Origin: a virus
Reading direction: 5' to 3' (one strand)
Virus record (IMG/VR): IMGVR_UViG_3300031111_000528
Coordinates: 1 to 45,703 of that record
Length of the DNA: 45,703 nt
The position numbers and the translations under genes were made by a program. Positions within the stretch are counted from its first letter, which is position 1; each line of letters begins with the position of its first letter. This document shows, piece after piece, positions 2,269-44,141 of the stretch. The notes below the pieces were generated by a model. That model worked only from the letters and a program-made list of their open reading frames with translations. It did not search any database and was not told where the DNA came from.

Positions 2269-4053
2269 CTAAGAGAATGCCAGCCCGCCGTCGCGGGCTT
2301 CGTCCAGCAGCTTCTTTGTGTTCTTCGCGGTTTCCTCGGTGGCCTTCGCTGTGCGGTCGGCGGCATCGCCGGATTGCAGACCGAGAAGCGCAGCCGCGTT
2401 GAACGTCCCAGTCACGCCTACCTTCGCTGCCTGCTGGGAAAGCTCCATGCCGCCAAGCTCGGCCATGCCTTGAAGCCCGGACATGTCCGGTGCCTTGATC
2501 TCGACTGCTCCATCCAGGCCCAGCAGCTTGCCCAGCGACGAGTCCCCGAGCTTGGCGCGGAACTCGGCGTCGTGGGCCTGCCATTCCTTCGAGAGCTGCT
2601 CGCCGAGGGCGTTCACGCGGCCTTGAAGCTCCCTCTCCAGCGGGCCGATGTGCCGGGCGGCGATATTCGGCATTTCCTTGATGGCCGACTCGAAGCCTTC
2701 CAGCAGCGGCGTCCACTTGAAGTTCCAGCCTTCGCCGGTGGCGAAGCCGATGATGGCATCCCACAGAGCCTTGAGGTTGCGGCCGATGTTGACGGCCACC
2801 GTCTTCGTGAATCGCCAAATGGTCGTGAACACGTCCCGCCAGTTGTCGGCGAACCACTTGAGCGTCGCCGGGATCACCTCGACGAAGAAGTGCCGCACCT
2901 GCGAGGCGAAGCGGACGATGTGCAGAATCCCGGCGGATGCGGCATATTCCATTGCGGCCCGCCAGTTCTTCACGGCGAAGACGACGGCGGAGATGGCCGT
3001 GACGGCTGCGTTCTTGAACCAGCCGAACGCCTTGCCCAGCCACTCGACGGCCATGCCGCCCAGGTCGGTGGTGCTGGCCAGGACCGCACCGAGCGCGACC
3101 ACGGCCGCGATTACCAGGCCCAGCGGGGACAGGACGAAGCTCAGCACCGTCGCCAGGCCGCCGAGAATCGTTCCCGCAAGCGACACGGCTGTGCCGAGCG
3201 CTGCCAATGCGACCCCGCCTGCGACGACCATCGCGGCAACCTTGGCGATGGACACCACCACCTGCCGGTTAGCCTGTATCCACGCCGACGCCTTGACGGC
3301 GATGGTCGTGATCGTCCCGGCCAGTTGCTTGAGCGCCGGGGCCAGAGCGGCCCCCACCTGGAAGACGCCCATCTTGACGACCTTCCAGAGGGAGTCCATC
3401 GCGTCGGTGAAGTCCTCGGCCGCCTTGGCGTCCTCGCCCGACATCGTCAGGCCGAGCGCCCGGGCCTGCTGCTGGAGCGCCTCGATGCCCTTGGAGCCCT
3501 GGGCGAACATCGGCAGCAGGTTCGTGCCGGTTCGGCCGAACAGAGTCATGGCGATGGCAGCTTTCTTCGTGGGGTCGGAGATCTGGCCGATGCTGTCGGC
3601 CAGTTTCTTGAACTGCTCCTCCGGCGAGAGGCCGTCGAGGTCCTTGTACGTCAGGCCCAGGTCGGCCAGTGCGTCCTTGGCGGTGGACAGGCCTCGCCCG
3701 GCGTCGTAGATCGACCGCTGCATCCGCCGGAAGCCGTTTTCCAGCGACTCGAACTCCGTGCCGGTCTGGCTGGCGACGAAGCGGAGCTCGCTGAGCGTCT
3801 CGACCGACAGGCCGGTCCGCTTGGCCATCTTAGCGACCTGGTCGCCCATGGAACTGAACGCTTTAGCCGCCCCGAGCATGGGCGCAAGCACGGCCGTGCC
3901 GAGGCCGGCCATCTTCAGGCCCATGTTGCGTATGTTTGCACCGAAGGCCTTGAGCTTGGCCGACGCGGCCCTCAGCCCGCGCACGAGCTTGCTGTCGTCG
4001 GCGAAGAGCTCGACGAATGCACGGCCCGCTCGGATGCCTTGAGTCGATGGCAT
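2269..4053 (-). CDS. Phage tail tape measure protein
   Basis: The protein is 594 aa. The N-terminal third has the typical tape measure pattern: a short beta element, then a long run of Ala/Lys/Leu helices (KLKAFGANIRNMG, GDQVAKMAKRTGLSVETLSELRFVASQTG). This is characteristic of the TP901-type core domain. The middle (roughly residues 240-340) holds several hydrophobic Ala/Val/Gly-rich helices that could span a membrane during DNA injection. It is short for a tape measure, implying a short tail if length scales as usual. It sits between the tail chaperone and holin-like cluster and the distal tail genes. Confidence 0.85.
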   Translation of the reverse strand: MPSTQGIRAGRAFVELFADDSKLVRGLRAASAKLKAFGANIRNMGLKMAGLGTAVLAPMLGAAKAFSSMGDQVAKMAKRTGLSVETLSELRFVASQTGTEFESLENGFRRMQRSIYDAGRGLSTAKDALADLGLTYKDLDGLSPEEQFKKLADSIGQISDPTKKAAIAMTLFGRTGTNLLPMFAQGSKGIEALQQQARALGLTMSGEDAKAAEDFTDAMDSLWKVVKMGVFQVGAALAPALKQLAGTITTIAVKASAWIQANRQVVVSIAKVAAMVVAGGVALAALGTAVSLAGTILGGLATVLSFVLSPLGLVIAAVVALGAVLASTTDLGGMAVEWLGKAFGWFKNAAVTAISAVVFAVKNWRAAMEYAASAGILHIVRFASQVRHFFVEVIPATLKWFADNWRDVFTTIWRFTKTVAVNIGRNLKALWDAIIGFATGEGWNFKWTPLLEGFESAIKEMPNIAARHIGPLERELQGRVNALGEQLSKEWQAHDAEFRAKLGDSSLGKLLGLDGAVEIKAPDMSGLQGMAELGGMELSQQAAKVGVTGTFNAAALLGLQSGDAADRTAKATEETAKNTKKLLDEARDGGLAFS

Positions 4054-4056
4054 GGA

Positions 4057-4284
4057 CTACTCGTCCTCCGGCATGGGAAGGGAATACCACCCCTCGGGCA
4101 GGTTCATCTTGCCGGCGACGGGCTCGCCGTCGGCGTCCTTCACCCAGACCTTCACGTGCTTGACCGTTTCTCGCAGCCGCACGGGCGTGCCGTGCGGAAC
4201 GTAGATCGTCCGCACGCATCCTGCACCAGAGGTCAGCAGCATGATGGGCAGCAGGAAGGGAATCAGCCGTTTCAGAAGGCTCAT
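4057..4284 (-). CDS. Small lipoprotein, possible spanin-like lysis protein
   Basis: The protein is 75 aa with a Lys-Arg start, a hydrophobic core (LLPIMLLTSGAGC) and a lipobox ending at the Cys around residue 22. This predicts a signal-peptidase-II-processed lipoprotein. The mature part is a small charged beta-like domain. The ATG at 4284 overlaps the stop of the next upstream gene (ATGA), while the longer open frame is a shadow. Two more small membrane proteins lie directly upstream, so the three may form a lysis set (holin, membrane partner, outer-membrane spanin). The spanin idea rests on size, lipobox and neighbours, not on sequence similarity. Confidence 0.6.
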   Translation of the reverse strand: MSLLKRLIPFLLPIMLLTSGAGCVRTIYVPHGTPVRLRETVKHVKVWVKDADGEPVAGKMNLPEGWYSLPMPEDE

Positions 4285-4436
4285 GGTTTGCTCCAGTGCT
4301 CGCGGACCTTCGCTCGCAATTTGTCGCGCGTGTTGCGGTCTGGGTCGGCGTCCTCCGCCGTGGGCCGCGATTGCTTCACGACCCACGGCAGAAGCGCCTG
4401 CAACACGGCGGTCAAGATGGCGACAAGCCACTTCAT
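4281..4436 (-). CDS. Small membrane protein, possibly lysis related
   Basis: The protein is 51 aa: an N-terminal transmembrane helix (MKWLVAILTAVLQALLPWVV), then a charged tail rich in Arg, Lys and Asp that is probably cytoplasmic or periplasmic. The start overlaps the upstream stop (TGATG) and its own stop overlaps the lipoprotein start (ATGA), so it is translationally coupled on both sides. Its topology fits an inner-membrane spanin or holin partner. I see no catalytic motif. Confidence 0.6.
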   Translation of the reverse strand: MKWLVAILTAVLQALLPWVVKQSRPTAEDADPDRNTRDKLRAKVREHWSKP

Positions 4437-4816
4437 CAGGCAGCCTTCGAGTCGCTCAGGCCGCCAAAGCGGTCCAGGTCGTTGTGCGTGATCTGGATGC
4501 CTTGCTTGATTTCCTCGACGAGTTTGTCCGACGGCTGCTTGCCGTTGTTGGCTTCGGCATAGGCGTTCAGGACGAATCGAAGAGCCGTGTCGAGCTTTGC
4601 CAGGCCGGCGTTGGGCGTGTCGTCGGGGATCTGCTTCTCGGCCAGCTTGATGCCGGTGATAATGCTGCCCTCGTACTTCTTCCATGCCTCCTGGAACGGG
4701 TTGAGCTTGCTGGCCAGGAAGATGAAGAAGCCGACCACAGCCGCCCACGTCACAGCGAAACCAAAGCTGGAGTTGAGGAACTTCCCGACAGCCTCGATGA
4801 TTGCATTGACGTCCAT
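4436..4816 (-). CDS. Holin-like membrane protein
   Basis: The protein is 126 aa with one hydrophobic helix near the N-terminus (FGFAVTWAAVVGFFIFLASKL) and a helical, charged C-terminal half. This resembles the layout of LLH-type holins. I chose the second ATG at 4816 because a GGAAAGGA ribosome site lies the right distance upstream and the start follows the preceding stop by one base; the first ATG at 4843 would lie inside the upstream gene. Coupling with the two following small membrane and lipoprotein genes supports a lysis role. The family assignment is tentative. Confidence 0.6.
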   Translation of the reverse strand: MDVNAIIEAVGKFLNSSFGFAVTWAAVVGFFIFLASKLNPFQEAWKKYEGSIITGIKLAEKQIPDDTPNAGLAKLDTALRFVLNAYAEANNGKQPSDKLVEEIKQGIQITHNDLDRFGGLSDSKAA

Positions 4817-4817
4817 G

Positions 4818-5063
4818 TCATAGTCCTTTCCGGCCTTGTCCATTAAGGAAGGCCTGCTTCAGAGTTGCGATGTTCTCGTGGTCCACTTCGATGACTTCGT
4901 GCGGCGTCTTGCCCTCTCTACAAAAGGGGTCGTAATCGCTCGGCTTCATGGTCCGACCCTTCTTCGGGTCGCGGTGGCAGTTGGCCGTCAGGGCCAGCAG
5001 GACCGATAGCCGGCCCCATTCGTCGCGGCCGTGGCCTTCGGCCATCCACAGCAGTTGCCGCAA
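4818..5063 (-). CDS. Tail assembly chaperone, second part (frameshift product)
   Basis: From a TTG codon this is 81 aa, with the segment RQLLWMAEGHGRDEWGRL...LLALTANCHRDPKKGR..PSDYDPF that I associate with the T-type half of phage tail chaperones. The same frame continues upstream, inside the preceding gene, as RDVWIIAGSLGVDPRPLT. This looks like genuine conserved coding sequence, yet no ATG, GTG or TTG precedes it in this frame. The domain is therefore probably made as a -1 frameshift extension of the gene at 5066-5539, as in lambda G-GT. The predicted fusion is about 240 aa if slippage occurs at 5240-5246. Confidence 0.7.
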   Translation of the reverse strand: MRQLLWMAEGHGRDEWGRLSVLLALTANCHRDPKKGRTMKPSDYDPFCREGKTPHEVIEVDHENIATLKQAFLNGQGRKGL

Positions 5064-5065
5064 CG

Positions 5066-5539
5066 TCAGCGGTCGGGGATCGACTCCGAGACTTCCGGCG
5101 ATGATCCAGACATCGCGCCAGCGATCACTTCCTGAACGTCCAGACCGCCGATCTTCTCTTCGATGGCCTTCACGGCCGCGTCGATCATCGCCGCCTGCGT
5201 CTCCACGGCGCGGGCTCGGTCTGCCCGGCCGCGGCTGCGGAAAAAATCCACTAGTTCCTCATAGAACGCCTTCTGCGCCGCCAGCAGCGTCGCTCCGTCG
5301 AAGCCGGCCCGCACGTCGGCGTCACTGACCTTGTGCGTCTCGAACTGACTTGCCAGCAGGGCGCAAAGCACCTCGCCCAGGAGCATCTCGTCCGTGCCGA
5401 GGCGCGTCAGCAAAGGTGGATCACCGGCTTCCGGCTGGAGCAGGTCGATATCCAGCGTGTCCTTGACAGCCATGGCCGTGCCGAGGTTCAGGCCGATGGC
5501 CCAGGTTCGTCCGGCAGTGTCAGTGAATGTCTTCATCAT
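5066..5539 (-). CDS. Tail assembly chaperone, first part
   Basis: The protein is 157 aa and mainly helical in its second half. It follows the tail tube gene and precedes the tape measure region, the usual place for the G-type chaperone that coats the tape measure during tail building. I chose the ATG at 5539 because it forms an ATGA overlap with the tail tube stop; the longer frame is a shadow. About two thirds in, the codons GAT TTT TTC contain a T TTT TTC heptamer, a likely -1 slip site leading into the frame of the downstream chaperone part. The function is assigned from context and from the downstream part. Confidence 0.7.
   Translation of the reverse strand: MMKTFTDTAGRTWAIGLNLGTAMAVKDTLDIDLLQPEAGDPPLLTRLGTDEMLLGEVLCALLASQFETHKVSDADVRAGFDGATLLAAQKAFYEELVDFFRSRGRADRARAVETQAAMIDAAVKAIEEKIGGLDVQEVIAGAMSGSSPEVSESIPDR
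5240..5246 (-). promoter_or_regulatory. Candidate -1 ribosomal frameshift site T TTT TTC
   Basis: Read on the minus strand, the zero-frame codons are GAT TTT TTC, giving an X XXY YYZ heptamer. The -1 frame has a TGA a few codons upstream and is then open without a stop to base 4818. The slip site therefore sits at the very start of the shared open window. A run of six T is also the slip signal known for the phage P2 E/E' tail chaperone. No pseudoknot was modelled. Confidence 0.55.
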
Positions 5540-5979
5540 GCACCTCCGACTTCGTGCCACTCGACGAACACCGCCAACTTCGCCGTCACGTCGGCGACGA
5601 TTGCCTCTTCCAGCGATTCGTTGCGGGAGAAGTTGGTGATGGCAAAGTCGCCAAGCGGGCCTTGTGCCCCGGAGATGCCAACCTTCTGGTCCAGCACGGC
5701 TAGTGCGACGGTGCTGGCTGTGAGGAATGCGGTCTTGATCGCGTCGAAGACGGTGTCGCCCGGCCGCCAGACCATCTGGAACTCGACGGTGCACTCGCGG
5801 AGCGTCGGTGCAGTGGCCCGCCAGCCGGAGTTGCCTCGCGTGGTGATGTCCGCCTCGCCGGCCTCCAGGTTGAGCGTCACGTCGCGGACGTTGTCCACCT
5901 CGGTCATGCCCGACGGCGAGGTCTCGCCGGCTGCTCCCTGGTAAAGCCCGGCGTTCATGCCCAATACATAGGTTGCCAT
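5536..5979 (-). CDS. Major tail tube protein
   Basis: The protein is 147 aa. It has the length, beta-rich composition and position of a siphophage tail tube subunit. The N-terminus (MATYVLGMNAGLYQG) is followed by VDNVRDVTLNLEAGEADITTRGNSGWR and the FEFQMVWRPGD-like stretch typical of tail tube proteins, which carry a short motif describing differences from a tube background. It lies between the head-tail connector genes and the tail chaperone pair. The stop overlaps the chaperone start (ATGA). Confidence 0.75.
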   Translation of the reverse strand: MATYVLGMNAGLYQGAAGETSPSGMTEVDNVRDVTLNLEAGEADITTRGNSGWRATAPTLRECTVEFQMVWRPGDTVFDAIKTAFLTASTVALAVLDQKVGISGAQGPLGDFAITNFSRNESLEEAIVADVTAKLAVFVEWHEVGGA

Positions 5980-31886: not shown

Positions 31887-32135
31887 ATGCCGGTCGAGAT
31901 CAACGGAAAACGATACCTCCAGGTAACTGAAGTCGCTGAAGCCGTGGGCGTTACACGGCAGACGCTTTGGCGATGGAGGCGTGACGGGGCCATACCCGTA
32001 GGCAGGAAGTACCGCGGCCGGCAGATCATCTACATGCCGAACGAGGTCGAGTTGATCCGGCTGTTTGCAGAGCGAATTGAGCCGATCGACGATCAACACC
32101 GGCTAGAGAAGACGTTGTTCGAGGGCGACTCGTGA
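31887..32135 (+). CDS. MerR/excisionase-type regulator of defence operon
   Basis: The protein is 82 aa. YLQVTEVAEAVGVTRQTLWRWRRDGAIPVGRKYRGRQIIYMPNEVELIRLF is a MerR-type winged helix with the expected arginine-rich wing. GGAGAG lies before the ATG at 31887; the TTG at 31848 is less likely. The last four bases overlap the desulfurase start (GTGA), so it is made with the modification genes. It probably controls its own operon through the inverted repeats upstream. Confidence 0.75.
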   Translation: MPVEINGKRYLQVTEVAEAVGVTRQTLWRWRRDGAIPVGRKYRGRQIIYMPNEVELIRLFAERIEPIDDQHRLEKTLFEGDS

Positions 32136-33307
32136 TCTACTTGGACAACAACGCGACAACGGAGCCTCTCCCGGAAGTGCGAGAGGCCGTTCTTGCTTCG
32201 CTGTGCCTTGGCCCGTCCAATCCTTCGAGCCCGCACGCGGCGGGAGAACCGGCGAGGCGTCTTCTCGCTGATGCGAGAGAGAGCGTCGCCCAACTGATAG
32301 GTGCTTCCTCGGAACAGGTACTCTTCACTAGCAGCGGTACGGAAGCCAATAATCTGGCGATGAACAGCATCGCATCACGACACTCCCAAAGCCACCTTCT
32401 CACCACACCAATCGAACACGAGTCGGTACGACGGAAGGCTGATATGCTCCGAGCTTCCGGCGTGGCAGTTGACGAGCTTCCGGTTGACAGCGCTGGGCGA
32501 GTTCGCCTTGACGCCGCAGACAGGATGATCACTCCCGAGGTGGGGTTGGTATCCGTTCAGTGGGTCAACAATGAGACCGGGACCGTCCAGCCCGTTGAAA
32601 GAATTGCTTCGCTGTGTCGCAGCCGAGGAGTCCGTTTCCACACCGATGCCGCTCAGGCTGTCGGGAAGATTCCGGTTGATGTAGCGTCGCTGAAGCCTGA
32701 TTTCCTGACCTTTACGGGCCACAAACTGCACGCCCCGATGGGCATCGGCGTCCTCTACTTCCGCAAGAGCGATCATCTGCGGCCGGTCATAGGGGGTGGC
32801 ACTCAGGAGCTTGGGCTTCGTCCAGGTAGCGAGAATCTCGCTGGCATTGCGGGCCTTGCTGTCGCCTGTGGCCTCCGGCGGCAACGCTTATTGGATGTCG
32901 TGAAGCGGATGACACAGCTGCGAGATGCTTTCGAGGCGGGAGTCCTGGGGGTCTGTGAGGGAGCATGTCTGAATACGCCGCGCGACGTGAATCGCGTGTG
33001 CAACACGACCAACATCCGGTTTCCGGAGGTGGACGGCGAAGCCCTCCTTGCCCAACTGATCATGCAAGGGATTTGCTGCTCTCAGGGCTCGGCCTGCACC
33101 TCACAGATTCCCGAACCATCACATACGCTGTTGGCTATGGGATTGACTGCACGCGAGGCCTACCAGAGCATCCGGTTCAGTCTGTCCGAGCTGAACACAA
33201 TGGATGACATAGACGGTGCCGTAGAGACCATTGCAGCATCCTACACGAGGCTGAAGCATGCGCTCTGCCGCCACGAGAACTTGGCAAAATCGGGGGGGAG
33301 AGCATGA
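32132..33307 (+). CDS. sspA: Cysteine desulfurase (SspA/IscS-like)
   Basis: The protein is 391 aa. Class V aminotransferase features: SSGTEANNLA, His 96 (TPIEHESV), DAAQAVGKI, the PLP-lysine in TFTGHKLHAPMG (Lys 198), GTQELGLRPGSEN, and the catalytic loop CSQGSACTS with Cys 322. The enzyme takes sulphur from cysteine and holds it as a persulphide. With the PP-loop partner at 37519 it supplies sulphur for the DNA backbone, as SspA (or DndA) does. The start is GTG in a GTGA overlap and the end is ATGA with the next gene. Confidence 0.85.
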   Translation: MIYLDNNATTEPLPEVREAVLASLCLGPSNPSSPHAAGEPARRLLADARESVAQLIGASSEQVLFTSSGTEANNLAMNSIASRHSQSHLLTTPIEHESVRRKADMLRASGVAVDELPVDSAGRVRLDAADRMITPEVGLVSVQWVNNETGTVQPVERIASLCRSRGVRFHTDAAQAVGKIPVDVASLKPDFLTFTGHKLHAPMGIGVLYFRKSDHLRPVIGGGTQELGLRPGSENLAGIAGLAVACGLRRQRLLDVVKRMTQLRDAFEAGVLGVCEGACLNTPRDVNRVCNTTNIRFPEVDGEALLAQLIMQGICCSQGSACTSQIPEPSHTLLAMGLTAREAYQSIRFSLSELNTMDDIDGAVETIAASYTRLKHALCRHENLAKSGGRA

Positions 33308-34179
33308 GGTTCTCAGGGCATGAGACGTTCTCCGTTCGAGAAGGTTGGCTTCACAAGGGCCTCCGGATGCTCTGTGAAGAGCCGGACATACTCTTCCATG
33401 AGCACGCTGCGGACTATCTCGGCGTCGGGTCGAACATGGCAAAATCCATCCGGCACTGGCTCCAGGCCACGGGTCTTGCACAGTCGGCCGAAGACCGGCG
33501 AGGCCGGCTTGAACCGACTCCCCTCGGCGTGCTGATCCTGGAACATGATCCGTACTTCATCGAGGTCGATACATGGTGGCTGCTGCACATCAACCTTGTC
33601 AGTAGGCCGCCGTACGCGGACACATGGCACTGGTTCTTCAACTCATTCAACCTGGAAAGGTTCGACCGATCCGTCGTCGTCGAGAATCTCCGCCAGTATG
33701 TGCAGATGAACAACAAGCGCATGCCGAGCATTAAGACGCTTGATCGGGATGTGTCTTGTCTGATGTCGAGCTACTCGAGGAATATCCCCGTGGACAATGC
33801 CGATCCGGAGGAGTCTCGCGACTGTCCGTTCCGGGACCTCGGTCTTCTCAGCCACTACCGCTCCTCCGGCTACTACCAGATGCACCATCAGATGAAGGCC
33901 GTACATCCCTGTGTCTTCGGTTACTGCGCCGCCAAGGCCTTTGAGGATGCTGGCAAGGGAGACATCGCAGTTCATCGCCTCATCAGAGACCCCGGCGGGC
34001 CGGGGCGTGCGTTTGTGCTCACCAGCGAGTCGCTTTACGAAACTCTGATTCACGTGACCAACAACTATGAAGAGATACGCATCCATGGCCATGCCGGCCA
34101 AAGGGCCGTATCGCTACCCGACCGCGATCCTGTGTCCTGGGCGGAGGCGCTCTATCACACGCTAGGAGTGACCGCCTAA
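33304..34179 (+). CDS. sspB: DUF4007 protein, SspB-like DNA nickase
   Basis: The protein is 291 aa. The opening MRFSGHETFSVREGWLHKGL is the hallmark of DUF4007 proteins. A winged-helix-like part follows (YLGVGSNMAKSIRHWLQATGL). SspB of the SspABCD system belongs to this family and nicks DNA so that single-strand phosphorothioation can take place (established for SspB; inferred here). The ATG sits in an ATGA overlap with sspA, and its TAA overlaps the next start (TAATG). Translation coupling across the genes suggests a fixed ratio. Confidence 0.8.
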   Translation: MRFSGHETFSVREGWLHKGLRMLCEEPDILFHEHAADYLGVGSNMAKSIRHWLQATGLAQSAEDRRGRLEPTPLGVLILEHDPYFIEVDTWWLLHINLVSRPPYADTWHWFFNSFNLERFDRSVVVENLRQYVQMNNKRMPSIKTLDRDVSCLMSSYSRNIPVDNADPEESRDCPFRDLGLLSHYRSSGYYQMHHQMKAVHPCVFGYCAAKAFEDAGKGDIAVHRLIRDPGGPGRAFVLTSESLYETLIHVTNNYEEIRIHGHAGQRAVSLPDRDPVSWAEALYHTLGVTA

Positions 34180-37100
34180 TGCCCCGAAAGAAGAAGGCAT
34201 ATCGAGTCGCTCCTGAAGCCGAGGACTTCCTGCGGTCCATCAACTTGTGCTTCGATGCGGAAGAACCGGAGAGAATCGCCCATTTCAGGCCGACTGCGAA
34301 GAGTGTTCCGCTGATGGAGGGGCTGTTGGCGGACGCTTCAGAGAGAGCCTTTCTGGTTGTTGCCCCGTACGGCTCCGGAAAGTCTCTGACACTGACCTAC
34401 CTGCTGCATGCCATCGAGAACCGGCCCGAATCGCAAAGCATGTTGTCATCTGTGGAGCGGCGTCTGGATGTGATAAGCCCATCTCTCCGCAAGACGTTGC
34501 TGAGTCGGCGTCGAACAAAGAAGCATGGCCTCGTCATTCCGCTGCATGGATATCAGAAGAGTCTGGGCCACGCGCTTCGTGTAGCAGCACATGACGCAAT
34601 TCGAAGGAACAAGCTGGGACGGCAGGCTCGCAGGCTGAGCGACACGGCAGTCGAGACCATGGAAGAGGCCGTCAGCTTTCTTCAGGAACTGAAGCAGGTC
34701 TGCCGAAGTGCGGGTTACGACCAGATATGCATCCTGTGGGACGAGACCGGCAGGCACCTTGAGTCGCTCATCGCCGACGGCAAAGCAACTGAACTCTCGG
34801 ATATCCAGCTTCTTGCCGAATATGCGTCCCGGTCCACGGACTTGCCGGTCACGCTGGGCGTTACCTTGCACCAAAGCATGCTGCACTACGCGCAGCAGAT
34901 GACCCAGTCCGTGCGTGCTGAATGGCTGAAGATTTCGGGCCGCTTCGAAACAGTACAGTACGTTGACGACAGCAAGGAAATCTACCGTCTCGTCGCCGAC
35001 ATCATCGCATCCAATCGTGGCGTGGTCGATCTTCCGTCCAAACGGACCTTGCGCGATCTTGCCAGGGAGGCGAAAGACACTCATGGCATGTTCAGCGACT
35101 TCACGCTCGCCGAACTGAGCGACTTGTTTGAGTCGATCTATCCGGCGAGTCCAGCCGCTGTCTATCTTCTGCCTCGGGTCTCAGCTCGAGTGGCGCAGAA
35201 CGAACGCACCTTGTTTACGTTCCTGTATACGGTGTCGCTGGCTGATGGATTCTCTGTTTCCGATCTCTATGACTACTTCTCGCCGTCGATGAGAGGTGAC
35301 ACTGCCGTAGGGGGAACGCACAAGCAATGGCTGGAAACCGAGAGCGCGCTTTCGAAGACAACAGGAGAAGAGCAGGAAGTCCAATCATTGAAGGCGGCGT
35401 GCCTTCTCAGCTTGGGAACCAAGGGTGAGCGATCCAGGGTTGGCCGAGACACGCTGCTGTGGTCCCTCGCAGGCTTCGACTCAAGCCGGGCGTTAAACGA
35501 CACGGTTTCAGACCTAGTGGCAAAGAAGCTGCTGCTGTATCGCGAGCACAGCCAAGAGGTGTCTGTCTGGCATGGCACGGATGTAGACCTACGTGGGCGA
35601 CTCCTTGAAGAGCAGGATCGGCACCGGGCGACCTTTGATGTCCTCGCGTTCCTGAACAAGGACGCCAGCCCAGAGCCGCTCAAGCCCATCGAGTATAACG
35701 TTGAGTACGGGGTGACCCGGTACTGGCCGGGTGAGTACCTGCTTGCAAGGGACTTCGCGTCCCTGATCGAGGATGACGGCGAGGGGCCGCAAGTACCCCT
35801 TGGGTCAGATGGCGTAGTCTACTACGTCATTGCTGAGACAGGAGAAGAGCTCTGCGAGGCACAGGCAGTGGTCCAGGAGCTAAGACATGACCAGGTCATC
35901 GTGTCTCTGCCCAGCAGCCCGCTGAATCTCATCGACGCGGCTCTCGAGGTGTGGTGTCTCTCTTCAATGCAGCACAATTCCGATCTGACGGGCGAAGACC
36001 CTCTCGTCTTGCCTGAGCTGCAGCAGATGCTTGATGACGCACGAGCCAATCTCCATGCAGTCCTGGATAAGCTTGTGCGGCCGACACCAGATGGTCCACG
36101 CTGGTACCACAGGGGGCAGCCGATGGCCATCACTAGGGTAAGCGAGATGCGCCGTCAGCTTTCGGCCATCACTAGAAAAGTCTTCTCCAGTACTCCGCAC
36201 ATCCATAACGAACTGATCAACCGCCACAAACCGAGTGGCACGATTGTCAATTCTCGCAAGAAACTCCTCATGGGAATCCTGGAGCGTCACGGTAGCCCTG
36301 AGCTTGTGACCGTGCCGACCACGCCGGATGCATCCATGTTCCGGACCATTCTTGTGCATACCGGTCTATATCGAGAGAACGGAGACAGTTCCTGGGGCTA
36401 TGTATCAGGCAAGACTAGCAGCCTGACGGATGATCACGGCCTGAAAGATACTTGGAACCGGCTGAGGGAGTTCTTCGAGGTTCCGTCTGATGCGCCCAAG
36501 AGGCCGAGAGAATTGCTGGACGAGCTTGTTGCCCCTCCATTCGGCATACGCCGGGGGCTGTTGCCGATCTTCTTCGGCGCTGGCATGAAGGCTTTCGGCA
36601 AAGCGATCTCGCTCCGCAATGGCAACGAATACGTCGCCGACATCCTACCCTCCGTGATCGAAGACCTCTGCCGCAATCCCGACGGCTATGAGGTCGAGGT
36701 CATTGCGCTTGATCCTCAGACCGACGAGTACTTGGCCACGGTGCGTGATGTGTTTGGGGGAGGCAGCCATCTCGATCTTGATACCGACCTCGTTCGGGCC
36801 ACTTACGACGCCATCCAGAGCTGGCTGTTTCAGCTTCCCAAATCGGCATTGACGGCGGATCATCTGTCCCAGCGGACTAGAGACTTTCAACGCCTGCTGC
36901 AAAATGCTCGCGAGACAGACCCGCTCGTATTCGTCTTGCAGCAGCTTCCGAAGGTATGCGGTTTTGATCGAAACCACTGCGATGACGCCCGCGCCGCCCT
37001 CAAGGAAGTGAAGGATGAACTCGAAAGCGTGTCCGATACCTACGTGCGGAAAGCAGCTTCGTCGGTTCAGCAGGCACTCGCTCGGGCTCACAACGATAGT

Positions 37101-37535
37101 TCACAAGGAATTCAGAAACTCGCCATGCAGTGGGCTAGCTACTTTCCCGACGCTGTGGCCGCAACAGGTCTCCCTGGGATTGCGAGAGGGCTGCTGTCGC
37201 GGATGAAGATGAGTTACGATGATGACGAGCTGTTCGTCAACTCACTGGCGCTATTGCTAGTCGGACGCCCAATTGATGATTGGGATGCAAGCATCGCGAT
37301 TGAGTTTGACGGTAAGATTCAGGAACTCGTCCACCGGATTGAAACAACGGCTCTACGACAGAGCGCTGCGGTCGATCTTGAGGACGCTGAGGAGATTCGC
37401 GATGGGCTATCTCATCTGGTGGCCGAGCGGATCGAAGACCTCTATGGTCAGCTAATCCGACTTGTCGGATCAGACAGATCGCGAGACGTTGTGACGACAA
37501 TCGTGAAAGGAGGGGGCAATGGCCACTCTACGTGA
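34179..37535 (+). CDS. sspC: Large P-loop ATPase, SspC-like
   Basis: The protein is 1118 aa. The P-loop VAPYGSGKSLTLTYL (Gly-Lys-Ser at 66-69) and a Walker B-like ILWDE (185-189) form an N-terminal AAA-like ATPase, followed by about 900 residues of helical and mixed sequence. Size, ATPase motif and place between sspB and sspD match SspC, the ATPase of single-strand phosphorothioation. It may move along DNA or organise the nickase and sulphur enzymes. Overlap with sspD is 17 bases, with a strong AGGAGGGGG ribosome site inside its end. Confidence 0.75.
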   Translation: MPRKKKAYRVAPEAEDFLRSINLCFDAEEPERIAHFRPTAKSVPLMEGLLADASERAFLVVAPYGSGKSLTLTYLLHAIENRPESQSMLSSVERRLDVISPSLRKTLLSRRRTKKHGLVIPLHGYQKSLGHALRVAAHDAIRRNKLGRQARRLSDTAVETMEEAVSFLQELKQVCRSAGYDQICILWDETGRHLESLIADGKATELSDIQLLAEYASRSTDLPVTLGVTLHQSMLHYAQQMTQSVRAEWLKISGRFETVQYVDDSKEIYRLVADIIASNRGVVDLPSKRTLRDLAREAKDTHGMFSDFTLAELSDLFESIYPASPAAVYLLPRVSARVAQNERTLFTFLYTVSLADGFSVSDLYDYFSPSMRGDTAVGGTHKQWLETESALSKTTGEEQEVQSLKAACLLSLGTKGERSRVGRDTLLWSLAGFDSSRALNDTVSDLVAKKLLLYREHSQEVSVWHGTDVDLRGRLLEEQDRHRATFDVLAFLNKDASPEPLKPIEYNVEYGVTRYWPGEYLLARDFASLIEDDGEGPQVPLGSDGVVYYVIAETGEELCEAQAVVQELRHDQVIVSLPSSPLNLIDAALEVWCLSSMQHNSDLTGEDPLVLPELQQMLDDARANLHAVLDKLVRPTPDGPRWYHRGQPMAITRVSEMRRQLSAITRKVFSSTPHIHNELINRHKPSGTIVNSRKKLLMGILERHGSPELVTVPTTPDASMFRTILVHTGLYRENGDSSWGYVSGKTSSLTDDHGLKDTWNRLREFFEVPSDAPKRPRELLDELVAPPFGIRRGLLPIFFGAGMKAFGKAISLRNGNEYVADILPSVIEDLCRNPDGYEVEVIALDPQTDEYLATVRDVFGGGSHLDLDTDLVRATYDAIQSWLFQLPKSALTADHLSQRTRDFQRLLQNARETDPLVFVLQQLPKVCGFDRNHCDDARAALKEVKDELESVSDTYVRKAASSVQQALARAHNDSSQGIQKLAMQWASYFPDAVAATGLPGIARGLLSRMKMSYDDDELFVNSLALLLVGRPIDDWDASIAIEFDGKIQELVHRIETTALRQSAAVDLEDAEEIRDGLSHLVAERIEDLYGQLIRLVGSDRSRDVVTTIVKGGGNGHST

Positions 37536-38331
37536 AGCGCTTGCGGCAATCACCGAGCAACCCGAGATCAAGCACATCGTCAGTGTGTCTGGGGGTAAAG
37601 ACTCTGCCGCCCTCGCGATCTACCTCCGCCAGCAGTATCCAGAGATACCGGCTGAGTATGTGTTCTGCGACACGGGTTGCGAACTGCCAGAGACGGATGA
37701 GTACATAAAGCGCCTTGAGGGCGTTCTTGGCAAGGAGGTCATCCGGCTAACCGCGCTCGAGACGTTGGGCATCAAGGAGAAGCCTGGACGAAACCCATTC
37801 GACATCTGGCTCAAGGAAGTGTACGGCGGGTTCCTGCCAAACCCGAGAAGCCGATGGTGTACGCGGGTCCTCAAGATTGAGCCTTTCGAGCACTATGTAG
37901 GCGATCAGTACGTGTTCAGCTACATTGGCATCCGCGGCGACGAAGATCGAGAGGGCTACAAACCAAAGAAGCCACCGCGCCTGTCGGAGCGACCGAACAT
38001 CGTGCCGATCTATCCCTTCAAGGACGACGGTCTTGGCCTGCCGGACATCAAACGTCTCTTGGAAGAAGCGGGACTTCACCTGCCCAAGTACTACGAGTGG
38101 AGGTCTCGCTCCGGGTGCTATTTCTGCTTTTACCAGCAGATCGGTGAATGGCAGGGATTGCGTGATCGCCATCCTGAGCTCTTCGAGAAGGCCCAGAAAT
38201 ATGAAATGAAGATCAACGGCAAGCAGTTTACCTGGGTTGATGGGCGAACGCTTGACCAGATTGCCGACATGCCCCGATATGAAGTGCCGTCGATGGACGA
38301 GGTAGAGGGGTGTGCCATATGCCACCTTTAG
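37519..38331 (+). CDS. sspD: PP-loop ATP pyrophosphatase, SspD-like (PAPS reductase family)
   Basis: The protein is 270 aa. The PP-loop is SGGKDS (24-29), with FCDTGCELPETDEY next, RWCTRVLKIEP (Cys 114) and a four-cysteine set: Cys 200, 203, 265 and 268. These resemble the iron-sulphur ligands of DndC and SspD. The enzyme activates the DNA phosphate with ATP and inserts sulphur from SspA. It is the last gene of the modification half. A very good ribosome site (AGGAGGGGG) precedes the ATG. Confidence 0.85.
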   Translation: MATLREALAAITEQPEIKHIVSVSGGKDSAALAIYLRQQYPEIPAEYVFCDTGCELPETDEYIKRLEGVLGKEVIRLTALETLGIKEKPGRNPFDIWLKEVYGGFLPNPRSRWCTRVLKIEPFEHYVGDQYVFSYIGIRGDEDREGYKPKKPPRLSERPNIVPIYPFKDDGLGLPDIKRLLEEAGLHLPKYYEWRSRSGCYFCFYQQIGEWQGLRDRHPELFEKAQKYEMKINGKQFTWVDGRTLDQIADMPRYEVPSMDEVEGCAICHL

Positions 38332-38420
38332 AGGATCTGATGGGGCGGTGGACCAGCGAACTCGGCAACGAGCGGGCCTCACGGCTCGCCGGGGAGGGCG
38401 GCGGTGAAGAAACTCCTTGA
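38319..38420 (+). CDS. 33-aa linking frame between sspD and helicase
   Basis: An ATG at 38319 inside the sspD end begins a 33-aa frame that ends 17 bases into the helicase gene. The gap between sspD and the helicase is otherwise only 72 bases. The frame could carry ribosomes across it. The peptide (PPLEDLMGRWTSELGNERAS and on) has no motif I recognise. It may be chance. Confidence 0.3.
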   Translation: MPPLEDLMGRWTSELGNERASRLAGEGGGEETP

Positions 38421-40023
38421 AACGCTTGCGAGGCTTGGGGCGACAGAGCTAGCGGCCTTTCTTGGCGATAGCACGGTGTCACTGTTGGAAATGCTCGGAT
38501 TGGAGCACCTGCAAGCGTTCCATCTGGCCGAGCTGGTGCTTACGCAGATCGGCCCCGAAGATCTTCTTCTTGACAACGCTCGCCGGCGCGAGCTGACTGA
38601 TGCCCTGACGGGTGAAGACGCTGAAAGACTGTGTCGTCTCGTAGGCATCTCTGCGGAGCCAGACGCGTGGACCGCCCTTCGTCGCCAGACGTTCCCCAAG
38701 GGCAGCGCTGCTTCGGCGGCGCTGTTTGGTTTCTTCGGCTACAGCCCGGCAGCCGAGGAAGGCCAGCGAGACCAGCCTCGCCCCTCAACCGTCATCGACC
38801 CGGAGTACAGCCTGTTTCCACACCAGATCACTGCCTGCCGGGAATGTACAGATATTCTGACACAGGGACAGCGGCCCCGGGTGCTCCTTCACATGCCGAC
38901 AGGTGCAGGCAAGACTCGAACGGCCATGAACGTCCTGGCACACTTCTTCCGTGATCGAATAGGTGATTCGAGCCTGGTGGTGTGGTTGGCGCACAGCGAA
39001 GAACTCTGCGAACAAGCTGCGGAAGAGTTTGAGAAGGCCTGGAGTGCCTTGGGTAACCGGCCGGTGAACGTCTACCGCGCCTACGGTCCACACCGGCCAG
39101 ACCTGCAAGCTTTGCGCGGCGGCCTCCTAGTGGCAGGGCTGCAGCTCCTTCACCGCCGCAGTCTGTCTGAGCAAGATGCGTTCTTCCGCATATCAAGGAG
39201 CGTAGCTCTCATCGTTATCGATGAAGCTCATCAAGCGATTGCCCCAACGTATCGCCATCTGCTGGAGTTGCTGGCGGTTGACCCGCGAACCGCGCTGCTT
39301 GGACTGTCTGCGACGCCCGGTCGAAGTCTCCTCGATGCTCACCAGGACATGGAACTCGCCCAGTTCTTTCGCAGGCAGAAGGTGACGCTCCGCGTGCCAG
39401 GATATGACAGCCCTATAGCCTACCTGCAGGCAGAAGGATATCTGGCCAACGTCGAGTACGACTATGTCCCATACAGCCCGGGAAAGAACATTGTCATGAC
39501 GCCTGATGAGGTCCAAAGGCTACAGTCCGAGCTGGACCTTCCACAATCGGTAATCACGCGCCTGGGGCAGGATCACAAGCGGAACTTTCTCATAGTTAGC
39601 CGTCTGATCGAGGAGGCTAAAGCTGGCTCGAAGATCATCGTCTTTGCTTGCTCAGTGCAGCATGCGCACATCTTGGCTGGCATCTTGGCAGCTAAGGGCT
39701 TTCGTGCAGGGGCAATCACGAGCAGCACCAATCCAGCACGCCGCAGGCAGTTGATCGCTGACTACAAGTCCCCCTTGGGCTGTCAGATACTCTGCAACTA
39801 CGGCGTCCTCACGATGGGCTTTGATGCACCAAAGACCAAATGCGCCCTGATCGCAAGGCCTACGCAGTCCGTTGTTCTCTACAGCCAGATGGTCGGGCGA
39901 GCCGCTCGCGGCCCGAAGGCTGGGGGGAATGAGCGATGCAAGATTATCACGGTGGTTGACCAATTGCCCGGCTTCCGGAGCGTTGCCGAGGCGTTCGAAT
40001 ACTTCGAGGAGATATGGCAATGA
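38404..40023 (+). CDS. SF2 helicase of the defence effector arm
   Basis: The protein is 539 aa. A helical N-terminal domain (about 1-125) of unknown type precedes the motor: MPTGAGKTRT (164-173), DEAH (273-276), SAT (302-304) and YSQMVGRAARG near the C-terminus. The closest pattern is that of type III restriction and DISARM/DEAD-like helicases. The GTG at 38404 follows GGGGAGGG. The stop overlaps the GHKL gene (ATGA). I expect it to move on invading DNA and pair with the nucleases downstream. Confidence 0.8.
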   Translation: MKKLLETLARLGATELAAFLGDSTVSLLEMLGLEHLQAFHLAELVLTQIGPEDLLLDNARRRELTDALTGEDAERLCRLVGISAEPDAWTALRRQTFPKGSAASAALFGFFGYSPAAEEGQRDQPRPSTVIDPEYSLFPHQITACRECTDILTQGQRPRVLLHMPTGAGKTRTAMNVLAHFFRDRIGDSSLVVWLAHSEELCEQAAEEFEKAWSALGNRPVNVYRAYGPHRPDLQALRGGLLVAGLQLLHRRSLSEQDAFFRISRSVALIVIDEAHQAIAPTYRHLLELLAVDPRTALLGLSATPGRSLLDAHQDMELAQFFRRQKVTLRVPGYDSPIAYLQAEGYLANVEYDYVPYSPGKNIVMTPDEVQRLQSELDLPQSVITRLGQDHKRNFLIVSRLIEEAKAGSKIIVFACSVQHAHILAGILAAKGFRAGAITSSTNPARRRQLIADYKSPLGCQILCNYGVLTMGFDAPKTKCALIARPTQSVVLYSQMVGRAARGPKAGGNERCKIITVVDQLPGFRSVAEAFEYFEEIWQ

Positions 40024-41810
40024 CATCCGAGGCATCCTCAGTGAACTATGAAATCCTTCCGCCGCATCTGGCCATCAAATCGATGCGTGACTCGGGGTAC
40101 CGCGATACGGCGCACGCCTTGGCGGAGCTCGTAGACAACAGCATCCAGGCCGGGCTGTCCGTGAACGAGGTGACCCAGGTCGAGGTGCTGTGCATCGACA
40201 CGGTCGACCTCGTGACCGAGAGACGCCGGCAGCGTATCAGCGAGGTGGCAGTTTACGACAATGCATCTGGAATGGATGCGGAAACGCTGAGGATCGCTCT
40301 TCAGTTCGGAAATGGAACGCATCTGGAATCCGAGGCCCAAGACGGTATCGGCAAGTTTGGCATGGGGCTGCCGAACGCATCGATATCACAGTGCCGTAGG
40401 GTAGATGTATGGTCTTGGCAGGAGGGCCGGTGCTTGCATACATACATCGACATCAGCGAAATCCGTTCTGGCAAGCAGCGTGCCGTACCAGAGCCAGAAG
40501 CATCAGAGATTCCGTCGCGATGGTTGGAACTCATACGCGATGAACCAAGTGACCACGGCACGTTAGTGGTGTGGTCTGAAATCGACCGCATCCGGTGGAA
40601 GACGAGTCCCGCGTTCTTCCGCAACGCGGAGTTTCTGATTGGTCGAATGTATCGCTACTTCCTGCGAGACAAGAAGGTGTCCATTCGGCTTGCGGCATTT
40701 GAGGATACGGGCGGCCAGGTCAGCAACAAGATCGACCGGGATGTTCTCCCGAACGACCCGCTGTACCTCATGGCAGGGACGTCGTCGCCAAGTCCTTTCG
40801 ACGAGAAGCCAGCATTTGACGAAGTCGCAAGATATCCGATACAGGTTGGGGCAAATGGCGCGCCCCATGAGGTCATGCTTACCTTCTCGATTGCCACGAA
40901 AGAGACTCGGGACGAAGGAGGAAGTGTGGCGATCGGTAAGCACACATCACGGAATCAAGGCGTATCCCTTGTGCGAGCCGGGCGTGAACTCGACATGAAT
41001 GATAGCTTCACCATTAAGTATGATACACGTGAGAGATGGTGGGGTATTGAGGTGAGTTTTGGCCCTGAGTTAGATGACGTGTTCGGGGTGACAAACAACA
41101 AGCAATCTGCGACTGCCTTCCGGGAATGCGACCTTGACGAGGATGCAATGAGCGAGGGCATGTCGCCCGGGGAGTTCCGAGATTACCTCGCTGAGTCGGG
41201 CGACCCACGACTTGCCATTTATGAGATCTCGCAGGAGATTACGAAGACACTCCGACGGCTTCGGGAGCAGATCCAGAGGATGAGAGCGGGTACGCGCAAG
41301 ACTGGCGTGGCCCCGGCTCCCGGTTCTGCAGAGGACATCGCGACACGCGCTACGAAGCGGCGACGAGAGGAGATTGGCGCGCAGGGAGAGAGCGACGAGG
41401 GGGAGGCACTGCCGGATAAGGACAAGGAAGCTCAGATATCGGAAGAACTGATTGCCGAAGGCGTGGACGAGGAGCAGGCGAAGGAAATCGCAGTTGAGTA
41501 CGTCCGCAAGCATTTCAAGTACCTGTTCCAGGAGGCACCGGTCCCTGGGTCAGCCATCTTCGACATTCGCTCGAAGGCCGGAACGATTATCATCCTGCTC
41601 AATACGCGTCATCCAGCAAGCGAACACCTGTTCGCAATCCTCAAGGAAGATGAAGAGGATACGCCGGCGCTCAAGGCACTCAAGCTGCTTCTTACTGCAT
41701 GGGCGCGCCTTGAGGACGAGGCTGGGGATACAAGAAGGCAGCAGCTAGAGGACATCCGCAGCGATTGGGGCAGAATCGCTCGCGATTTCCTGAACGAAGC
41801 CGAGGAGTAA
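40020..41810 (+). CDS. MORC/MutL-like GHKL ATPase
   Basis: The protein is 596 aa. GHKL motifs: N-box ALAELVDNSIQAG (Glu 36 and Asn 40), G1 YDNASGMD (79-86), and G2 GIGKFGMGLPNAS (109-121). This matches prokaryotic MORC-type ATPases, known from gene neighbourhoods with helicases and restriction enzymes. The middle is beta-rich and the C-terminus has a charged, coiled-coil-like stretch (about 425-470). GAGGAG lies eight bases before the ATG at 40020 but only two before the ATG at 40014, so 40020 is preferred. It overlaps the helicase stop. Confidence 0.8.
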   Translation: MTSEASSVNYEILPPHLAIKSMRDSGYRDTAHALAELVDNSIQAGLSVNEVTQVEVLCIDTVDLVTERRRQRISEVAVYDNASGMDAETLRIALQFGNGTHLESEAQDGIGKFGMGLPNASISQCRRVDVWSWQEGRCLHTYIDISEIRSGKQRAVPEPEASEIPSRWLELIRDEPSDHGTLVVWSEIDRIRWKTSPAFFRNAEFLIGRMYRYFLRDKKVSIRLAAFEDTGGQVSNKIDRDVLPNDPLYLMAGTSSPSPFDEKPAFDEVARYPIQVGANGAPHEVMLTFSIATKETRDEGGSVAIGKHTSRNQGVSLVRAGRELDMNDSFTIKYDTRERWWGIEVSFGPELDDVFGVTNNKQSATAFRECDLDEDAMSEGMSPGEFRDYLAESGDPRLAIYEISQEITKTLRRLREQIQRMRAGTRKTGVAPAPGSAEDIATRATKRRREEIGAQGESDEGEALPDKDKEAQISEELIAEGVDEEQAKEIAVEYVRKHFKYLFQEAPVPGSAIFDIRSKAGTIIILLNTRHPASEHLFAILKEDEEDTPALKALKLLLTAWARLEDEAGDTRRQQLEDIRSDWGRIARDFLNEAEE

Positions 41811-41814
41811 TCGG

Positions 41815-42795
41815 GTGGCGGACCAAGGCGAGAATCTTGTCTGGTCGCCCATTGAGCCACATCTGATAGGCCGGTGTGGGGACGAGGGTGGGATGCGCCT
41901 CTTGGTCGCACCGTTCATCCAACGGGACGCCTTCTGTCATCTCGTCGGCCGCCTCTCATCGCATGCAGAGCTCAAGGTCATCACGAGATGGAATGCCCGC
42001 GACTTGGCTGCAGGTGTGTCGGACCCCTTCGTGTTCGAAGAATGCCGTGATAGACACATCCCCCTTTATCTGCATTCCTCGATTCACTTGAAGCTTATCA
42101 CGATGGGCTCAGGCCTATGCCTCTGTGGCAGCGCGAACATAACGGCTACCGGCCTCGGGCTGCACGACCATGGCAACATTGAGGCTGGAATGTGGGCGCG
42201 TCTTGGCCCAGCAGATTGGCGATGCGTGTACGAAATTGTCAACGGCAGCCGTGTCGCAGACGAAGCGATGTTTGAGGCCGCTGTGGCATATCGCGAGAAG
42301 TTCTTGCATGCCGCACCGCCCTTGCCGCCATTGGTACTGCCACCAAGCCCGCCAGTCGACCTCACGCTGACATCCTTGCCGGCAACAATGAGCCCGGAGG
42401 ATGTGGCTACGTTTGCCGCTGGAGAGGAGGGCAAGTCGGTCACCGGTGGCGTCGATGTGAACCGCTTGATGCATGATCTCGTTCATTTTGGCGTACCATG
42501 CGAAAGGGACAAAGATGCCCTACTGAGGGGCATCGGCGAACGGTTTCTGAAGCAGCCCTTCGTAAGAGAGATCATCGATCATGTCCGGGAGTCTGGCACG
42601 CTCCGATTCGGCGAGATGACCGCCTGGATTCATTCGCAATGTCGCGATGTCCCGGTGCCATTCCGGTGGGAAGTGAAGGAGGCCACGAGGGCGCTCTACA
42701 ACTGGCTGGCGTTCTTCGTGCCGGAGATTACGTGGTCTGTTCCGGGTCAACGCTCACAAGTTATTTGTTGGAAGATCGCTGTTAGGGACGACTGA
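41815..42795 (+). CDS. Phospholipase D-family nuclease (DrmC-like layout)
   Basis: The protein is 326 aa. IHLKLITMGSGLCLCGSANITATGLG carries a single HKD motif: His 91, Lys 93 and the GSxN at 105-108. PLD-family nucleases work as dimers. The C-terminal half has a Pro-rich hinge (about 165-180) and a winged-helix-like end. The layout recalls DISARM DrmC, but no DUF1998 partner is present. The GTG at 41815 follows the MORC-like stop by four bases. Confidence 0.75.
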   Translation: MADQGENLVWSPIEPHLIGRCGDEGGMRLLVAPFIQRDAFCHLVGRLSSHAELKVITRWNARDLAAGVSDPFVFEECRDRHIPLYLHSSIHLKLITMGSGLCLCGSANITATGLGLHDHGNIEAGMWARLGPADWRCVYEIVNGSRVADEAMFEAAVAYREKFLHAAPPLPPLVLPPSPPVDLTLTSLPATMSPEDVATFAAGEEGKSVTGGVDVNRLMHDLVHFGVPCERDKDALLRGIGERFLKQPFVREIIDHVRESGTLRFGEMTAWIHSQCRDVPVPFRWEVKEATRALYNWLAFFVPEITWSVPGQRSQVICWKIAVRDD

Positions 42796-42813
42796 AGACA
42801 CACGAGGTCTCGC

Positions 42814-43734
42814 ATGGCTTCTGATCTACCACAATGGGACGTAGTCGAAGATGAACCGGAATACGGGATGCTCCTGAACGGCACCCCAGTCGTCGCGAAA
42901 GAGTCTGATGACGGCACTAGCGAAGAGGAGGTTATCCGTGACTGGCTGATTTCGATGGGTTTGGACGACAGGCTTCAGAAGTGCCCGATGTGTGGCCGTC
43001 CGTTGGCCCGAGCCCATCAGATTGAATGGCAAGACGGAGGAGACGGGATATTTGATCGAGAATTACAGGTATTGGCGTGCGCTCACTGCGCATATTGGCT
43101 CTACTGCAACTGCGTGAACACCGGCCCTAGCGTGTATGGTTGTCCCTGTGCCACGAAGGCGACGAGCCGGTTGCCATGTCTGAAACGTTTTGAGCGCCAC
43201 CTGCCAGATGGGTGTGCTGCTGAGATCGCTCAGCAACTGCGACGAGATCCGTCCAGATGGCATACAATCGATCCGCATCAGTTCGAACGTTTTGTGGCAG
43301 ATGTGTTCAGAGCCAACCACAGTGAAGCAGAAGTGATACATGTGGGGAAGCCTGCTGATGGGGGCGTGGATGTCTATTTCGTCGACGCTGGCGAGGAATG
43401 GCTGATCCAGGTGAAGCGAAGGGAGTCACCAACAGCTGCAGAGGGGGTCGGAACGCTGCGGAGTCTCCTCGGGACCTTAATTTTGGAAGGCTCAACAAGA
43501 GGGATGATTGTTACAACCGCTGATCATTTCACCTACCAAGCGAGGTTGGCCCAAGAGAAGGCTGCGAGCGTTGGATTCAGGGTCGTGCTCCAGGATAGAG
43601 ACATCCTCAATCGGATGCTAGACAACGTGATGCCGGATCGACCATGGCTGGGATTCGTTCGAGAGGAGCAGCCCGACTGGTATGGGCACTTCGCAGCCTC
43701 GATTCCAAGTCGGAGGCAGAAGCTTCTGTTTTGA
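42814..43734 (+). CDS. Mrr-type restriction endonuclease with zinc ribbon
   Basis: The protein is 306 aa. Cys 57, 60, 89 and 92 form a likely zinc ribbon (KCPMCG...CAHC). The C-terminal Mrr catalytic domain shows FERFVADVF (155-165), DGGVDVYF with Asp 186, and LIQVKRR (Gln 199, Lys 201), the PD-(D/E)XK core. Mrr enzymes cut modified or foreign DNA. The zinc ribbon may read DNA or contact the partners. ATG 42814 has ACGAGG upstream. It is the last gene of the operon, convergent with the recombinase partner gene. The sequence is visibly more AT-rich than the phage genes. Confidence 0.85.
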   Translation: MASDLPQWDVVEDEPEYGMLLNGTPVVAKESDDGTSEEEVIRDWLISMGLDDRLQKCPMCGRPLARAHQIEWQDGGDGIFDRELQVLACAHCAYWLYCNCVNTGPSVYGCPCATKATSRLPCLKRFERHLPDGCAAEIAQQLRRDPSRWHTIDPHQFERFVADVFRANHSEAEVIHVGKPADGGVDVYFVDAGEEWLIQVKRRESPTAAEGVGTLRSLLGTLILEGSTRGMIVTTADHFTYQARLAQEKAASVGFRVVLQDRDILNRMLDNVMPDRPWLGFVREEQPDWYGHFAASIPSRRQKLLF

Positions 43735-43739
43735 CCTTT

Positions 43740-44141
43740 TCATGTCTGAGCAGGCGGATACGCTTTGCGGAAGTGTTTCCACTGTTTCTTCCATTCGATG
43801 ATCTGAACGATTGGCCGAAGGTCTCGTTCGTTGATGGGGTCGCGGCCTTCCATCACGGGCGGGAGGTGCAGGATGGCCTCCTGAATGTCCGGGGCCAGAT
43901 GCAGCAGGTTCATGAGCTGGGTCATGCGGGGCTGCGTGACGTGTGCGAGGCGGGCCAATTCAGACTGGTCGGCGATCTGGCCGTCACGGAGAAGTGCGTC
44001 AAAGCGAATCGCCAGGGCCATCAGCTTCGACACGCGGGGGATGCGACCTGTCGGCTCAGCTGGTTTCGGGGCGGGGCCGGGCTTGGCCACCTTGCCATGC
44101 CCCTTGGCGACGAAGTGAATCTGCTTCGTGACTGTCGTCAT
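43740..44141 (-). CDS. Helix-turn-helix partner of serine recombinase
   Basis: The protein is 133 aa. The core ALLRDGQIADQSELARLAHVTQPRMTQLMNLLHLAPDIQEAIL is a ParB-like helix-turn-helix. Small genes of this kind often follow large serine recombinases in phages and elements. Its ATG overlaps the recombinase stop (ATGA), so both are made from one message. It may help select or regulate integration and excision, though that is inference. Confidence 0.75.
   Translation of the reverse strand: MTTVTKQIHFVAKGHGKVAKPGPAPKPAEPTGRIPRVSKLMALAIRFDALLRDGQIADQSELARLAHVTQPRMTQLMNLLHLAPDIQEAILHLPPVMEGRDPINERDLRPIVQIIEWKKQWKHFRKAYPPAQT

Follow-up and report, generated by a model that had tools for sequence, protein, structure and literature searches.

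In phage lambda, the genes for the major tail protein, the chaperone G, its extension T and the tape measure protein lie in that order, with T in the -1 frame and a heptamer (GGGAAAG) that permits a tandem slip; G and the G part of the fusion protein GT bind the tape measure protein, while the T part binds the major tail subunit (PMC5009743). The lambda slip lies 7 codons before the G stop, and GT therefore holds nearly all of G. A comparable pair in phage P2 (E and E+E'), lying between the genes for the tail tube and the tape measure protein, uses a -1 slip on a run of six T (T TTT TTG) that falls 8 codons ahead of the stop of E; further tail chaperone extensions are annotated as -1 or ribosomal-slippage products in HK97 (gp13/gp14) and Bxb1 (gp20/gp21).

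The DNA examined here ('the window', which is the whole stretch of 45,703 nucleotides of IMG/VR virus record IMGVR_UViG_3300031111_000528) carries a similar arrangement on its minus strand, and its analysis makes it highly probable that -1 programmed frameshifting of the lambda G/GT type at 5246-5240 produces a tail chaperone GT besides G. A -1 frameshift in a tail chaperone pair had been proposed in an earlier note on this DNA, and is upheld by the position of the genes, an invariant heptamer, the avoidance of -1 stops, the lack of a second start and a T-like domain. The features concerned are as follows.

5536 to 5979, minus strand: tail tube protein, immediately upstream of G (Pfam Phage_tail_2, E 5.7e-07)
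5066 to 5536, minus strand: G, the putative zero-frame tail assembly chaperone (156 amino acids, 16.6 kDa predicted; homologues align from MKTF)
5536 to 5534, minus strand: ATG start of G (alternative ATG at 5539); its TGA stop is at 5068 to 5066
5259 to 5261, minus strand: TGA at which the -1 frame is closed, lying five codons before the heptamer
5256 to 5260, minus strand: Shine-Dalgarno-like GAGGA, candidate stimulator, 9 nucleotides before the heptamer
5240 to 5246, minus strand: slippery heptamer T TTT TTC, invariant in close homologues
5203 to 5234, minus strand: predicted GC-rich hairpin, candidate stimulator, starting 5 nucleotides after the heptamer
5068 to 5239, minus strand: dual-coded overlap, read in frame zero as the C-terminal 57 residues of G and in frame -1 as the linker and the beginning of T
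4818 to 5246, minus strand: -1 frame, an Arg/Gly/Asp-rich linker followed by a T-like domain (stop at 4820 to 4818)
about 5240 to 5121 and about 5120 to 4821, minus strand: the linker and the T-like domain, respectively, within the -1 frame
2269 to 4053, minus strand: tape measure protein, downstream (PHROG tape measure, E 1.1e-42)

A G of 156 amino acids is likelier than one of 157, since the start used in most homologues corresponds to the second ATG (5536). In frame zero the heptamer is read within GAT (5248-5246), TTT (5245-5243) and TTC (5242-5240), the phase that the earlier note had described; its account of a -1 frame closed just upstream (by the TGA at 5261-5259) and then open (from 5258 to 4818) also agrees with the sequence, as does its observation that a conserved T-like segment precedes any -1 start codon, the earliest ATG, GTG or TTG of that frame in the window being the TTG at 5063, downstream of RDVWIIAGSLGVDPRPLT. 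The predicted GT comprises G residues 1-97 followed by the product of the -1 frame (239 amino acids, 26.5 kDa); its transframe sequence over the slip site is predicted to begin AFYEELVDFFPQPR, and the tryptic peptide predicted for a -1 slip at 5246-5240 is AFYEELVDFFPQPRPGRPSPR.

The order tail tube, G, T and tape measure is conserved in homologues, with G and T as an overlapping pair of open reading frames as in the lambda type. A tblastn match to the tail tube protein was found upstream of G and on the same strand in all 92 loci searched (at a median of 440 bases before the G start), and the tape measure gene lies on the same strand in each of the 79 loci that have a match to it. Two small open reading frames (4057-4843, minus strand) separate T from the tape measure gene: one, at 4843-4436 (minus strand), is membrane-protein-like, has an ATG that overlaps the end of T, and has a positional match in 46 homologous loci; the other is lipoprotein-like (LTSGAGC), with a positional match in 27. 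Both look like lysis or moron genes.

Of 23 members, 22 matched Pfam Phage_tail_T through the T domain (best E 1.3e-05); the window's own copy fell below the Pfam cut-off (15.7 versus 25.9 bits), and G gave no significant match to curated families. An AlphaFold model of G was confident (pLDDT 85.6), and its best viral fold matches were tail assembly chaperones and proteins named as tail tube; the top match in BFVD was a tail assembly chaperone (probability 1.00, TM 0.48/0.58, E 5e-3). The model of T was poor (pLDDT 68.8), and a fold search of the PDB returned no significant match for either model. Among INPHARED phages, no homologue of G and no credible homologue of T was found.

Homologues were gathered by scanning viral sequences twice and genomes once, with peptide-pattern seeds that exclude the FF site. 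The resulting set comprised 80 viral homologues together with the window (81) and 44 further loci, giving 125 loci and 111 distinct genes, which share ancestry, such that counts of genes and of stops are not independent events. The earlier note had named the heptamer in homologues as a point to check, and TTTTTTC proved to be exact and in phase in 81/81 loci of the first set and 44/44 of the further loci (125/125). The site shows no synonymous variation: the two phenylalanine codons are TTT in 111/111 and TTC in 111/111 genes, and a preceding aspartate is always encoded by GAT (89/89). The codon before the heptamer varies among GAT, GGT, AAT, GCT and CAT (Asp, Gly, Asn, Ala and, once, His) and always ends in T. 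Elsewhere in the same genes, codons for Phe, Asp and Glu are mixed, and Asp is mostly GAC. No other slippery heptamer common to the homologues was found.

The same fusion might arise if RNA polymerase slipped on the run of T and produced mRNAs lacking one U, an explanation suggested by a homopolymer of exactly six T in all close homologues. A run of six T is, however, short for slippage by a bacterial polymerase; moreover, the run keeps its length of six T and its X XXY YYZ phase, and an element of the kind that acts on ribosomes (the Shine-Dalgarno-like GAGGA) is fixed 9 nucleotides upstream of it. Transcriptional slippage is judged very improbable, and ribosomal slippage on the heptamer is the reading that we prefer.

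The point at which -1 translation begins was located from stop codons, with the number of -1 stops expected in 73 distinct genes being derived from synonymous shuffles. Upstream of the heptamer, 165 such stops were observed against 159 expected (35 against 35.4 in the ten codons just upstream), with a -1 stop adjoining the heptamer in 5 genes and lying five codons away in 25. From the heptamer to the G stop, none was observed against 75 expected; the absence is already evident in codons 5-10 downstream (0 against 10.0) and persists to the end. In a control, codons at which a T in third position would give rise to a -1 stop ('at-risk') were compared with those at which it would not ('safe'): in downstream codons 3-40, T-ending codons occupied 0/1041 at-risk and 128/2277 safe sites, whereas upstream they occupied 235/1804 at-risk sites. 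The same control applied to a set of Planctomycetota genomes gave 0/266 at-risk against 44/595 safe sites, and the outcome is thereby reproduced among more divergent relatives. Selection on the -1 frame thus starts at the slip site, with stops avoided downstream and not upstream. Since -1 stops are absent from the heptamer onward, these counts establish, on sequence grounds, that the -1 frame is translated and is entered at the invariant heptamer or no more than a few codons away.

The earlier note had also raised the doubt that the true slip might lie nearer to 5120-5150, because about 40 residues after the heptamer look like Arg-rich, out-of-frame sequence. On that account the frame would change close to the start of the T-like domain, and the heptamer would be conserved for some other reason. 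The underlying observation holds: the -1 frame from 5239 to about 5130 is variable, rich in Arg and marked by a frame-zero codon pattern, and third-position variability marks frame zero to about 5144, is mixed at about 5143-5108, and follows the -1 pattern beyond. The conclusion drawn from it does not hold. No -1 stop was observed across the 40 codons that follow the heptamer, where about 48 were expected, and 0/410 at-risk codons among codons 3-20 end in T; nor do the homologues share another slippery heptamer at which a later slip might occur. The absence of -1 stops from the heptamer onward rules out a slip at 5150-5120, and we regard that account as exceedingly improbable.

As read from its sequence, the stretch of approximately 40 -1 residues that follows slippage at the heptamer is a real, tolerated and poorly conserved Arg-rich linker shaped by the overlying sequence of G; its Arg-rich appearance is consequently not evidence against the slip. 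Indels within the linker region of several homologues leave both frames open. The Arg-rich linker that GT carries ahead of the T domain is basic (pI 11.8) and modelled at low confidence, and the private end of G is acidic (pI 4.9) and partly helical. In the G model the slip falls at the end of a helix spanning residues 82-102, and GT would therefore retain the N-terminal body of G minus its last helices. One stretch of roughly 170 dual-coded bases underlies both of these ends. There is about an even chance that the slip serves to exchange the end of G, yielding two chaperones with alternative C-termini that are fixed across Planctomycetota phages, with the G tail performing a job that is absent from GT.

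Conservation is also evident immediately upstream of the slip site. The first glutamate of a Tyr-Glu-Glu motif is encoded by GAG in all 107 genes with Glu at that position, and the next glutamate by either GAA (62) or GAG (49); the fixed GAG codon maintains GAGGA 9 nucleotides before the heptamer. A string containing the canonical anti-Shine-Dalgarno sequence, GGATCACCTCCTTT, occurs once in the genome of Planctomycetales bacterium ZRK34 (as a whole-genome match). A conserved GAGGA is a good Shine-Dalgarno sequence, and might instead aid a weak or unusual start inside G from which T would be made as a separate protein. The -1 frame, however, contains no ATG, GTG or TTG before the conserved LTLR segment in nearly all homologues (one pair of identical sequences being the exception), a stop adjoining the heptamer in some genes leaves no start near GAGGA, and the invariance of TTTTTTC would be left unexplained. 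A start of its own for T was ruled out by this lack of start codons before LTLR, and a separately initiated T has almost no likelihood. For frameshifting at the heptamer, the GAGGA is instead a candidate stimulator.

A second candidate lies downstream. The stretch 5 nucleotides past the heptamer folds more stably than synonymous shuffles (best-window mean z of -1.3, versus -0.1 to -0.5 elsewhere), and the hairpins are individually stable. Their pairing register differs between subfamilies; RNAalifold found no single conserved downstream structure among 66 sequences and no covariation support, and an Rfam search returned nothing credible. Because the register varies and no covarying structure is shared, the hairpin is graded as no more than a likely element.

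We infer the following course of events, in which slippage would be ribosomal rather than transcriptional. Most ribosomes would read through G (5536-5066) and yield the product of 156 amino acids, and a fraction would pause at the heptamer T TTT TTC while Phe-tRNAs occupy both the P site and the A site, a division that would set the presumed ratio of G to GT. Both tRNAs would then slip back by one base and re-pair with UUU UUU, after which reading in the -1 frame would pass through the Arg-rich linker and the T-like domain to end at 4818 and complete GT (239 amino acids). The internal GAGGA 9 nucleotides upstream and the GC-rich hairpin 5-7 nucleotides downstream probably raise the rate of slippage. 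By analogy with lambda, the presumed role of G is to coat the tape measure protein, and that of GT is to recruit subunits of the tail tube.

The genomes from which the homologues derive are mostly named as Planctomycetota (Phycisphaerae and Planctomycetales), and include the complete chromosome of ZRK34; a small number of bins carry other names and may have been wrongly assigned. A serine-recombinase-like open reading frame at the end of the window (44138-45703, minus strand), recognized by reading its translation, fits a temperate phage. The same virus record carries a complete SspABCD-type DNA phosphorothioation cassette (32132-38331, plus strand; SspA E 3e-116, SspB 1e-103, SspC 6e-161 and SspD 5e-91), directly followed at 38404-43734 (plus strand) by genes for a PbeA-like helicase, an MzaB-like GHKL-type ATPase (E 1e-18), a 326-amino-acid protein without assignment and a protein that matches an Mrr-like nuclease; these may be partners of the Ssp genes in restriction or defence.

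When 392 Planctomycetota genomes were searched with a profile, 38 proved to hold the family; T is in the -1 frame and overlaps G at each of the 30 Planctomycetota genome loci examined. The ideal heptamer is not universal: among 21 more divergent loci, TTTTTTC is kept in 13, and it is reduced in the other 8 (L204, L206, L209-L213 and L215), which keep T TTY at the same place. The variants found in these divergent Planctomycetota are T TTC TTC, T TTC TGC, T TTT TCC and T TTT ACC, and T is still in the -1 frame at each such locus, which suggests a weaker, perhaps single-tRNA slip. The retention of T in the -1 frame at loci that lack six T (T TTC TTC, T TTC TGC and T TTT ACC) is a further argument against slippage by RNA polymerase.

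These observations extend a classic recoding event to a large and apparently uncharacterised family of Planctomycetota viruses and proviruses, foremost in Phycisphaerae, in which gene callers that annotate G alone miss GT. Literature searches returned no report on this family, none joining TTTTTTC with tail assembly frameshifting, and none joining Planctomycetes prophages with programmed ribosomal frameshifting, a negative that falls short of proving that such reports do not exist. The combination of a mid-gene slip and a long dual-coded overlap also makes it possible to ask, in a natural system, which part of G the fusion needs.

The mechanism is of a known phage kind, and its unusual feature, judged against a small set of slip positions (lambda, P2, HK97 and Bxb1), is how early in G the slip falls. 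In P2, with which no sequence similarity was found, the seventh base of the heptamer is G, in contrast to the C found here, and the slip lies close to the E stop. In HK97 and Bxb1, the -1 frame is open for no more than the final 17 and 50 codons of the first gene, respectively, whereas 59 codons are used at this locus. The heptamer differs from that of lambda, and G has no significant sequence match; a slip near the 3' end of G, which is usual for the lambda type but does not strictly define it, is replaced by one that lies 59 codons before the G stop, so that the C-terminal 57 residues of G are missing from the predicted GT.
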